Shown: piece after piece, positions 1-3,022 of the stretch
How positions within the stretch are numbered: position 1 is the stretch's first letter
How the letters are laid out: every line of letters begins with the position of its first letter
Source: Chloroflexota bacterium
GTDB lineage: Bacteria > Chloroflexota > UBA6077
Direction: 5' to 3'
DNA: 5,127 bases
Assembly (NCBI GenBank): GCA_021806765.1
Contig: JAJZQR010000353.1
Span: 1-5,127 of the forward strand
The notes under the pieces: model-generated
The model's input: the letters and a program-made list of their open reading frames with translations, nothing else
What the model was told of the DNA's origin: nothing
The model's database searches: none
Position numbers and translations under genes: made by a program

Positions 1-400
<400 letters not shown>

Positions 401-546: not shown

Positions 547-576
547 TTGACTAGCTCCCCCTGGGTGCTCTATAGT
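547..576 (+). promoter_or_regulatory. Sigma70-type promoter of the candidate structured RNA
   Basis: A -35 box TTGACT at 547-552 is followed after 18 nt by a -10 box TATAGT at 571-576. The boxes match the consensus at 5 of 6 positions (-35) and 5 of 6 positions (-10). Transcription would begin about 6-8 nt downstream, at 582-584, which coincides with the first base of the closing helix of the downstream RNA (584). That independent agreement supports both calls. In 481-546 I see no gene or motif beyond a short palindromic stretch at 489-500. Confidence 0.65.
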
Positions 577-583
577 GCGTCTT

Positions 584-840
584 GCCCCGAGAGATCCGGT
601 ACGTGACACCGAACGGAGCAAGGGAGTTCGGCGGAGCGGGGAAACCCGAAACGCAAGAGCCTGAGCAGGGTTCGGGACTCTGAGACGGGACGGCTAACGG
701 AGCCGGCAGGGCGAAAGCCCGAGAGGCCGTTAGGGTGGGCCGATCAGAGATCCGGCTGCAGGTGACTGACGGCTGAAGACGGCGCAAGCCTGATCGGACG
801 AAGGAAACCGGCAAGCGGACGCAGAAAGGTCGCTCGGGGC
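584..840 (+). ncRNA. Candidate stand-alone structured RNA, about 257 nt, class unknown
   Basis: The sequence folds by hand into a closed multibranch structure. P1 is GCCCCGAG 584-591 with CTCGGGGC 833-840 (8 bp). An inner helix pairs CCGGT 596-600 with ACCGG 807-811. The branches are CCGAAC 609-614 with GTTCGG 626-631, and CCCGAA 645-650 with TTCGGG 671-676, the latter competing with a CGGG-GAAA-CCCG hairpin at 637-648. A further branch pairs CTAACGG 694-700 with CCGTTAG 727-733 and is capped by GGGC-GAAA-GCCC at 709-720. The last pairs CCGATCAG 740-747 with CTGATCGG 790-797 and contains CAG-GTGA-CTG at 759-768. All listed pairs are perfect, and three loops are GNRA-type. A promoter sits just upstream and a terminator-like hairpin just downstream. 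The 10-mer AGAGATCCGG occurs twice (590-599, 746-755). I do not see the conserved blocks of RNase P RNA, tmRNA or the SRP RNA S-domain. Alternatives are a riboswitch-like leader of mreB or a HEARO/omega-RNA relative without its nuclease gene. Confidence 0.6.
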
Positions 841-848
841 ACCTCTTT

Positions 849-895
849 GCCCTGGACCGGAGGCTGAGTCCACCGGGTCAGGGCCTTATTCTTTT
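849..895 (+). terminator. Terminator-like hairpin ending the candidate RNA
   Basis: GCCCTG at 849-854 pairs with CAGGGC at 879-884. A G-T wobble and one A-G mismatch follow, and CCGG at 857-860 pairs with CCGG at 873-876, leaving a 12-nt loop. The downstream tract CTTATTCTTTTCTT (885-898) is T-rich but interrupted by C and A, so termination may be partial. TGGAC 853-857 could instead pair with GTCCA 868-872, giving an alternative fold. The hairpin starts 8 nt after the closing helix of the RNA and ends just before the -35 box of the next promoter. Confidence 0.6.
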
Positions 896-896
896 C

Positions 897-925
897 TTGT
901 CCACCCTTCGACTGCATGGTATAGT
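897..925 (+). promoter_or_regulatory. Extended -10 promoter of the mreBCD-mrdA operon
   Basis: A -35 box TTGTCC at 897-902 is separated by 17 nt from the -10 box TATAGT at 920-925. TGG directly precedes the -10 box (917-919), forming an extended -10 element. The predicted start is near 932, giving a leader of about 113 nt to the mreB start. The -35 box overlaps the end of the T-rich tract of the preceding terminator, so the two transcription units are packed back to back. The same -10 hexamer is used by the RNA promoter at 571-576. Confidence 0.65.
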
Positions 926-1044: not shown

Positions 1045-2109
1045 GTGTTTAGCCCCCTCAACGCCATCCTGGGCCTCATGTCCAGGGACATAGGGATTGA
1101 CCTGGGAACCGCCAACACCCTGGTTATGGTACGTGGTAAAGGGGTCGTCATCAACGAGCCTTCGGTGGTCGCCATCAATAAGAAGACCAGGAGAGTGCTG
1201 GCCATCGGGGCCGAGGCCAAGCGAATGGTAGGCCGCACTCCCGCCAACATCGTCGCCATCCGACCGCTCAAGGACGGGGTGATCTCTGACTTCGACGTGA
1301 CCGAGCAGATGTTGCACTACTTCATCGGTCGGGTCCACGAGGAGTTCACCCTCATCCCCAGGCCCAGGGTTGTGGTGGGCATTCCCAGCGGGGTTACGGA
1401 GGTGGAGCGACGGGCGGTGCACGACGCTACCTGCAGCGCAGGTGCACGAGAGGCTCTACTGATCGAGGAGCCGATGGCCGCGGCCATCGGCGCCGGGTTG
1501 CCCATAACCGAACCCTCGGGCAGCATGATCGTCGATATCGGCGGCGGGACCACCGAAGTCGCGGTCATCTCCCTGGGGGGCATGGTCTCCCTCCGCTCCA
1601 TTCGGATCGCGGGGGACGAACTGGACCAAGATATCGTGACTTACGTGCGCCAACGCCACAACCTGATGATAGGGGAACGGATGGCCGAGGAGATCAAGAT
1701 CACCACGGGCAGCGCCCATCCAAGCACCGATGACCGCACTATCGCGGTTCGGGGCCGGGATGTCCTCATGGGGCTGCCCGGCGAGATACAGTTGACCAGC
1801 TCAGAGATCCGCGAGGCCATATCGAGTTCGGTGAACACCATCGTCGAAGCGGTGACCGAGACCATTGAGGAAACCCCTCCGGAACTGGTAGCCGACATGA
1901 TGACTCGAGGAATCACCCTGGCCGGCGGCGGTGCCCTGCTGCCCGGCATGGATCGGCTGATCACCGAGAGAACCGGCATCCAGGTACACATATCGGAGGA
2001 TCCCCTTCAGTCAGTCGTGCGCGGGACCGGCAGGGTGCTGGAAGATCTGGACATGCTGCGCAAGGTGCTGGTTGACGTCCAGGACAGCAAGAGCCCGCGG
2101 CGCCGATAG
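1045..2109 (+). CDS. mreB: MreB, actin-like rod-shape determining protein
   Basis: This 354-residue protein is full length for MreB. It polymerises with ATP into membrane-bound antiparallel filaments that orient the lateral-wall synthesis machinery (family knowledge). Visible motifs are phosphate-1 DLGTANT at residues 19-25, the IEEPMAAAIGAGLPI segment at 140-154 that carries the usual catalytic glutamate, phosphate-2 DIGGGTTEVAV at 164-174, AEEIKITTGSA at 214-224, and the adenosine motif GITLAGGGALLPGMDRL at 289-305. The first 12 residues (MFSPLNAILGLM) are hydrophobic and could form a short membrane-binding N-terminal helix, as in other MreBs. The tail ends in a basic DSKSPRRR. The GTG start is chosen for its strong Shine-Dalgarno. 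It is the first gene of the operon, and mreC begins 27 nt after its stop. Mbl-type paralogues are very similar, but the position ahead of mreC favours MreB. Confidence 0.97.
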   Translation: MFSPLNAILGLMSRDIGIDLGTANTLVMVRGKGVVINEPSVVAINKKTRRVLAIGAEAKRMVGRTPANIVAIRPLKDGVISDFDVTEQMLHYFIGRVHEEFTLIPRPRVVVGIPSGVTEVERRAVHDATCSAGAREALLIEEPMAAAIGAGLPITEPSGSMIVDIGGGTTEVAVISLGGMVSLRSIRIAGDELDQDIVTYVRQRHNLMIGERMAEEIKITTGSAHPSTDDRTIAVRGRDVLMGLPGEIQLTSSEIREAISSSVNTIVEAVTETIEETPPELVADMMTRGITLAGGGALLPGMDRLITERTGIQVHISEDPLQSVVRGTGRVLEDLDMLRKVLVDVQDSKSPRRR

Positions 2110-2953: not shown

Positions 2954-3020
2954 GTTCTGGGTTCTGAGTTCTGAGTTCTGGGTTGTTCGTTCCCAGAACC
3001 GAGAACTCAGAACTCAGGAC
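2954..3020 (+). repeat. Heptamer-built 29-bp hairpin between mreC and mreD
   Basis: Four tandem heptamers GTTCTGR occupy 2954-2981, and four complementary heptamers (CCAGAAC, CGAGAAC, TCAGAAC, TCAGGAC) occupy 2993-3020. The arms 2954-2982 and 2992-3020 pair at 27 of 29 positions, including two wobbles, with only G2973/G3001 and A2974/C3000 unpaired. The loop is 9 nt. The structure starts 4 nt after the mreC stop. Its 3' arm ends in AGGA (3016-3019), which sits 6 nt before the ATG at 3026 and is fully paired in the hairpin. It has no T-run, so it is more likely an mRNA processing, stability or translation-control element, or a spreading repeat, than a terminator. Confidence 0.85.
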
Positions 3021-3022
3021 TG

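Follow-up and report, generated by a model that had tools for sequence, protein, structure and literature searches.

The 257-nt segment at positions 584–840 (plus strand, G+C content 66%) of the window, by which we mean the whole 5,127-nt stretch of Chloroflexota DNA analysed here, is very probably a genuine stand-alone RNA gene, judging from its folding, its homologues in a second genome and the compensatory changes between them. It constitutes a new RNA family relative to Rfam 15 and it belongs to a familiar kind, that of the lineage-specific structured RNAs. On balance we favour a reading of the whole in which this lineage-specific gene produces a structured noncoding RNA that serves as a protein-binding scaffold. 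The first-pass annotation had put the region forward as a new or lineage-specific small RNA, a proposal that is now supported by the lack of an Rfam match, the occurrence of an orthologue and a paralogue, base compensation and a narrow distribution. None of the literature searched was found to describe this RNA.

Locus, copies and transcription signals

The window is a Chloroflexota-type stretch in its gene content. The RNA lies between the 3' part of a metY-like gene (2–400, plus strand), encoding a PLP-dependent enzyme of Cys/Met metabolism (PF01053), and mreB (1045–2109, plus strand), which is followed by mreC, mreD and a gene for a penicillin-binding protein. Among the MreB matches listed from named genomes (80 loci), most are from records labelled Chloroflexi or Anaerolineae, with a best identity of 69%. 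In a 400-genome sample of the phylum the closest MreB, 91% identical to that of the window, is encoded by a genome referred to here as G104, and those of the other listed genomes are at most 74% identical.

Of 29 genomes of the class to which G104 belongs, a DNA search located the RNA in G104 alone, where it occurs twice. The orthologue (C99:6360-6614) occurs after metY (L113:1839-3122) and before mreB, and it is 70% identical to the window RNA. The paralogue (C30:194418-194740) extends over 323 nt and occupies a different locus and, since it adjoins unrelated genes, the RNA is not tied to mreB. Small genes are located downstream of the paralogue (L114:291-1061), two of which carry ParE-toxin and HicB-like antitoxin domains. 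The copies are 60–70% identical in sequence and they correspond throughout in carrying a promoter-like pair, near-invariant pairing ends and a terminator-like hairpin.

The promoter-like pair of the window (547–576, plus strand) consists of a -35 box TTGACT (547–552) and a -10 box TATAGT (571–576), separated by an 18-nt spacer and matching 10 of 12 consensus positions. It ends 7 nt before position 584, in accordance with the earlier claim that the 5' end of the RNA coincides with the start predicted from a promoter. By eye, the G104 counterparts are TTGACA with TATTGT or TATAGT, such that the spacers measure 18, 17 and 16 nt in the window, orthologue and paralogue, respectively, and intervals of 7, 8 and 6 nt separate the -10 box from the G that opens the closing helix. 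When the 40 nt preceding the RNA are simply aligned, only 2/40 columns are identical in all three copies (16/40 for window and orthologue, 9/40 for window and paralogue), because the promoter spacing differs between copies, and another alignment does line up the -35 box together with some of the bases preceding it.

An intrinsic-terminator-like hairpin (849–884), with 12 pairs in the window, and a U-rich tail (together 849–899, plus strand) follow the body. The hairpin had been annotated at 849 and both it and the tail are present there, but a consensus terminator scan did not flag it and the window copy is not significantly more stable than its shuffles (z -1.5; 14/200). The hairpins of G104 have 13 pairs and z -5.9 in the orthologue and 16 pairs and z -8.4 in the paralogue and, although the hairpin sequence differs among the three copies, the pairing is kept.

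Folding, compensatory changes and architecture

The first and last eight bases of the body, GCCCCGAG at 584–591 and CTCGGGGC at 833–840, are perfectly complementary over 8 bp, exactly as annotated. The folding energy of 584–840 is -114.8 kcal/mol (z -4.4), a value reached by 0/200 shuffles, and the corresponding z for the minus strand is -2.2. For the window, orthologue and paralogue the z values are -4.4, -5.2 and -6.0. Among 90 strand-windows of 257 nt, each compared with 16 shuffles, 584–840 ranks eighth (z -3.7). Six of the seven stronger windows cover two simple palindromes (about 403–480 and 2957–3022) and the other is the minus strand of 1–257. Taken alone, the segment is a moderate candidate for a structured RNA, and the decisive support comes from the comparison with its homologues.

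The palindromes are elements in their own right. The first (403–480; CCCTCACCCCAACCCTCTCCC...) is long and imperfect, lies directly 3' of metY and has the appearance of a dispersed palindromic repeat; none of the 144 loci compared contains its first 21 bases. The second (2957–3022; GGGTTCTGAGTTCTG...CAGAACTCAGAACTC) is situated in the mreC–mreD interval and gave a sub-threshold microRNA match (mir-769, 34.5 bits against a cut-off of 57).

The first-pass annotation had further counted at least five nested perfect helices within the body. Six mutually non-crossing perfect helices of at least 5 bp can indeed be selected inside 584–840, but this number is at chance level, being reached by 227/300 dinucleotide shuffles (mean 6.1), and the longest of them (740–747/790–797, 8 bp) is absent from the minimum-energy fold. 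The latter contains only three inner helices of at least 5 bp, at 609–614/670–675, 678–683/744–749 and 694–699/728–733. The GNRA loops that had also been annotated are present in the predicted fold, as GAAA at 641–644, GAAA at 713–716 and GCAA at 784–787.

Covariation was examined in a non-circular manner by folding one sequence alone and scoring its pairs on another, against 20000 nulls that ignore the clustering of changes. When the window fold was scored on the orthologue, pairing survived at 9/12 two-sided changes (null 2.8; 2/20000), and 67 of all 79 pairs were standard ones (null 58.2; 0/20000). In the reverse direction, pairing survived at 11/17 two-sided changes (null 2.9; 0/20000), and 69 of all 86 pairs were standard (null 57.7; 0/20000). 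Most one-sided changes in these two tests break pairs (4/13 and 3/14 kept), which implies that the folds predicted from one sequence are wrong in places. Against the paralogue, two-sided compensation was not significant in any of the four directions (6/12, 4/11, 5/12 and 6/15, reached by 2528, 3378, 9930 and 1163 of 20000 nulls), while total pairing exceeded the null in three of them (122, 506 and 5 of 20000), the fourth, paralogue to window, giving 1224. The opposite strand carries a weaker signal that is nonetheless present: from orthologue to window 8/13 two-sided changes still paired (3/20000; total pairing 6/20000), from window to orthologue 162 and 916 of 20000 nulls reached the two-sided and total values, respectively, and from paralogue to orthologue 56 reached the total.

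A consensus of the two mreB-side sequences retains 69/69 pairs in both, with 10 two-sided and 4 one-sided changes, a result that favours itself since the structure was derived from the same two sequences. An alignment of all three sequences, fitted to the consensus structure, shows pairing in 95.1% of its 206 cells, and two-sided changes occur at 18 pairs, compared with 0 to 4 in slid controls and 7.7 in shuffles. As regards covariation, compensatory changes keep the predicted helices between window and orthologue and, in the non-circular test, are not significant with respect to the paralogue, the comparison encompassing three sequences from two genomes.

The body is predicted to be mostly structured, with 82 pairs in 257 nt, and conservation is distributed unevenly over its parts. 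The 5' side of the conserved core (584–603, plus strand) comprises the closing helix P1 (584–591), P2 (593–596) and a junction strand, with 19/20 positions identical in the three RNAs. Its 3' side (823–840, plus strand) comprises GAAA, P2 (GGUC, 828–831) and P1 (CUCGGGGC), with 16/18 identical. In our reading P2 is GAUC/GGUC, whereas the minimum-energy fold of the window pairs GA and CC with a bulged U. In the ensembles of window and paralogue the GGUAC part of the junction strand is largely free of pairing, and in that of the orthologue less so. For the three arms the positions identical in all three RNAs number 36/67, 28/72 and 29/73; the core is far more conserved than the arms, which hints that a binding or active site lies there.

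Arm I (609–675, plus strand), defined from the predicted fold and the comparison of copies, is closed by CCGAAC/GUUCGG. Its inner helix, in a structure-guided alignment made by eye, reads UUC/GAG in the window, UAA/UUA in the orthologue and UCC/GGA in the paralogue. Arm II (678–749, plus strand) is capped by a GAAA loop and its helix CUAACG/CGUUAG is replaced by CCGGCG/CGCCGG in the orthologue, with 5/6 pairs forming in the paralogue; these changes in arms I and II are the clearest compensations. Folded alone, arm II gives z -4.2, and the longer stretches of the orthologue and paralogue -1.9 and -2.3. Arm III (751–819, plus strand) is a predicted rod with a GCAA loop, built of short helices and purine-purine internal loops (GGU-GA-CU-GA-CG / CG-AA-GG-AA-ACC). 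Its elements GGTGACTGACGG and CGAAGGAAAC are the same in window and orthologue, the latter carrying a one-base insertion after CGAAGGAAAC. The predicted fold of the paralogue has four arms as against three, and the extra arm carries the GGGAAACCC element that is predicted to lie at the tip of arm I in the window and orthologue.

Consistent with the annotation, no convincing protein gene was found in 584–840. A frame starting at 582 with TTG, GTG or ATG, of leaderless type (582–682 in the window), coincides, in each of the three copies, with the start of the RNA, but the part common to them amounts to about 12 codons, overlapping the conserved core, and the frames end after 33, 28 and 117 codons. 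Window and orthologue are separated by four indels of 1 or 2 bases, such that any common reading frame is broken, and a 1-base indel shifts the frame at 582. Some similarity at the peptide level is seen among antisense frames, the highest being 34% over 64 residues for the two G104 copies (E 4e-7 against a database of a few peptides); it is probably attributable to the nucleotide similarity, and the frame ends differ. A protein-coding reading was rejected on the basis of the differing frame lengths and the indels.

Distribution and known RNA families

The distribution of the RNA is narrow as far as searched. A covariance model of the two mreB-side copies scores the paralogue at 48 bits and finds nothing else credible in the class, the 28 genomes other than G104 giving noise-level matches only. 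In samples of 400 (model R1) and 393 (model R2) genomes of the phylum, which overlap and were searched with stricter filters that lose weak matches, G104 was recovered together with one noise-level match each. A DNA comparison of 540–900 with the 80 listed MreB-matching loci gave chance matches only (best E 2.7). An HMM of the three copies, run against 117 sequences, found nothing else credible, the best others being at E 2.7 and weaker, except for the terminator hairpin on the opposite strand. In the upstream regions of mreB at 15 of 29 other loci (L084-L098; 20 shuffles), no fold equals the -4.2 of the orthologue, single windows reaching about -3.

Several weak matches were set aside as noise: short DNA matches in G002 (E 0.02, 21 nt), G010 (E 0.04, 18 nt) and G104:C2 (E 0.9, 24 nt), and model matches at E 0.06-0.9 in G019, G030, G036, G089, G120 (two), G167 and G104:C85. 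Such matches are to be expected because the E-values are per genome and many genomes were searched. Plasmid and phage collections gave no match to the RNA. Pattern scans of IMG/VR returned 0, 2, 1 and 23 stretches, of which the best by R1 or R2, L138 (12.0 bits, E 0.011) and L157 (15.4 bits, E 0.043), are taken as chance; L157 lies inside open frames and its core pairs are broken. The window and G104 share 91% identity in MreB against 70% in the RNA and, with no other listed MreB above 74%, the RNA may seem missing elsewhere because it diverges rapidly, without being truly absent. In a list of the 120 best MreC matches, 42 other proteins reach 60% identity or more with the MreC of the window, and the contigs that encode them should therefore yield many more orthologous neighbourhoods.

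In a comparison with the 4227 models of Rfam 15, a check that the first-pass annotation had suggested, no family overlapped 584–840 at E up to 10, and the G104 copies gave sub-threshold matches only, confined to the hairpin of the terminator (MIR5387, for example, scored 23.4 bits where the cut-off is 69). The first reading had been unable to match the sequence to RNase P RNA, SRP RNA or tmRNA, and it is none of these. Neither RF00010 nor RF00169 matches, and G104 carries separate genes for RNase P RNA (at C52, 119 bits), of which a genome has a single one, and SRP RNA (at C71, 63 bits), both over the cut-off. ARAGORN detects no tmRNA, an RNA with tRNA-like ends and a tag frame, in the window.

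Possible function and alternatives

The transcript would run from about 584 to about 895. In its product three rod-like arms (four in the predicted fold of the paralogue), with purine-purine internal loops and GNRA caps, would project from a fixed core made up of P1, P2 and the junction. Such an RNA could function in trans as a scaffold that builds or titrates a ribonucleoprotein, its conserved core or the length of its arms providing sites for one or several proteins. Protein binding in trans, taken as a claim by itself, is put forward tentatively. We favour it because the core is near-invariant, the rods are variable and compensated, and the gene is free-standing and duplicated; base pairing with mRNA or a role as mreB leader is less likely than a protein scaffold.

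The RNA could instead be a trans-acting antisense sRNA, the body serving only for stability while a linker or the junction strand pairs with target ribosome-binding sites. Possession of its own promoter-like pair and terminator-like hairpin accords with this, as does the pyrimidine-rich linker ACCUCUUU between body and terminator (841–848, plus strand), which is single-stranded in the prediction and largely conserved (8/8 positions in the paralogue, 6/8 in the orthologue). Together with the preceding base (CACCUCUUU) the linker resembles the 3' end of 16S rRNA. However, the orthologue linker reads AACCCUUU and its counterpart of the longer string CAACCCUUU, so that the 16S-like string is not strictly kept, and most of the 257 nt is structured. 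Duplex energies with the mreB start region were no better than those of shuffles (53/300 and 269/300) in a calculation limited to one mRNA and ignoring the RNA's own folding. An antisense RNA fits worse than a protein-binding RNA because conservation of its unpaired sequence should be highest where it pairs with the target, and we consider it rather unlikely.

A leader or attenuator, controlling the mreB operon, or the toxin-antitoxin-like genes at the paralogue, by conditional read-through of the terminator, would account for the same-strand gene that follows the RNA in all three places with a terminator-like hairpin between. Against this, a separate mreB promoter-like pair (TTGTCC, 17-nt spacer, TATAGT; 897–925, plus strand) lies downstream of the RNA terminator, and the same pair with a 17-nt spacer is seen by eye at the corresponding place in G104. 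Moreover, a leader should keep its downstream gene and those following the orthologue and paralogue are unrelated; accordingly, this role appears improbable. No better a prospect is the more elaborate idea that the RNA founds a new class of ornate RNA, a modular machine exclusive to a single Chloroflexota lineage, in which the conserved core is a catalytic or ligand-binding centre and the arms can be duplicated or swapped between paralogues.

Sequestration of CsrA, in the manner of CsrB, CsrC and RsmZ, is very improbable. Those sponges are also stand-alone RNAs, and CsrA is encoded in G104 (85 bits), as in 13/29 genomes of the class, but unlike them the RNA shows no excess of GGA triplets and few in hairpin loops. 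The 10 triplets of the window compare with a dinucleotide-shuffle mean of 12.0, and the 10 and 13 of the G104 copies with 11.2 and 15.0, so that the counts lie at the level of composition. Hairpin-loop GGA number 1, 0 and 2 in the three copies, rather than the many of CsrB-type RNAs, and long rods, in place of a series of short hairpins, make up the arms.

A divergent 6S RNA, binding RNA polymerase and serving as template for product RNAs, would share the pairing ends, and 6S RNA can occur in two copies per genome, as the RNA does in G104. In G104 the 6S model of Rfam detects nothing, and in the class it matches no more than 2/29 genomes, so that a diverged 6S may exist somewhere, and a missing 6S is uninformative by itself. 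Nevertheless, RF00013 gives no match to 584–840 at E up to 10, and the predicted body is multibranched and has no single long rod with a central bubble. The 6S model has 187 positions and the RNA copies measure 257–323 nt, which is long for 6S, and we regard this identity as highly improbable. A non-autonomous MITE-like mobile element with terminal inverted repeats, to which the inverted ends and the second copy in G104 might point, is scarcely credible since the similarity continues beyond the inverted ends, reaching the terminator on the 3' side and, at variable spacing, the promoter region, and G104 has just two credible copies, the identity among copies being only 60–70%.

To return to the RNA gene itself, its clear anatomy, its paralogue and the compensatory changes make direct follow-up possible and, in our judgement, the structured RNAs of uncultured phyla are poorly catalogued. 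Should it prove to be a protein scaffold or a ribozyme, bacterial ribonucleoproteins would gain a new kind; should it be a regulator, the neighbouring rod-shape operon offers an obvious point of departure.

The large structured RNA families OLE, ROOL, GOLLD and raiA-motif, which are included in Rfam, differ from the window RNA, which matches no Rfam family and was found in one lineage only; it is also shorter than OLE (roughly 600 nt). It resembles them in being, by prediction, an intricately folded bacterial noncoding RNA, as these are described to be, several with unclear function (PMC12286853, PMC9723947, PMC11706538). From the same phylum, and unlike the window RNA in having an Rfam number, is the Chloroflexi-1 RNA motif (RF01698), a candidate structured RNA of the Chloroflexota that is listed for Chloroflexus aggregans (PMC2864571).
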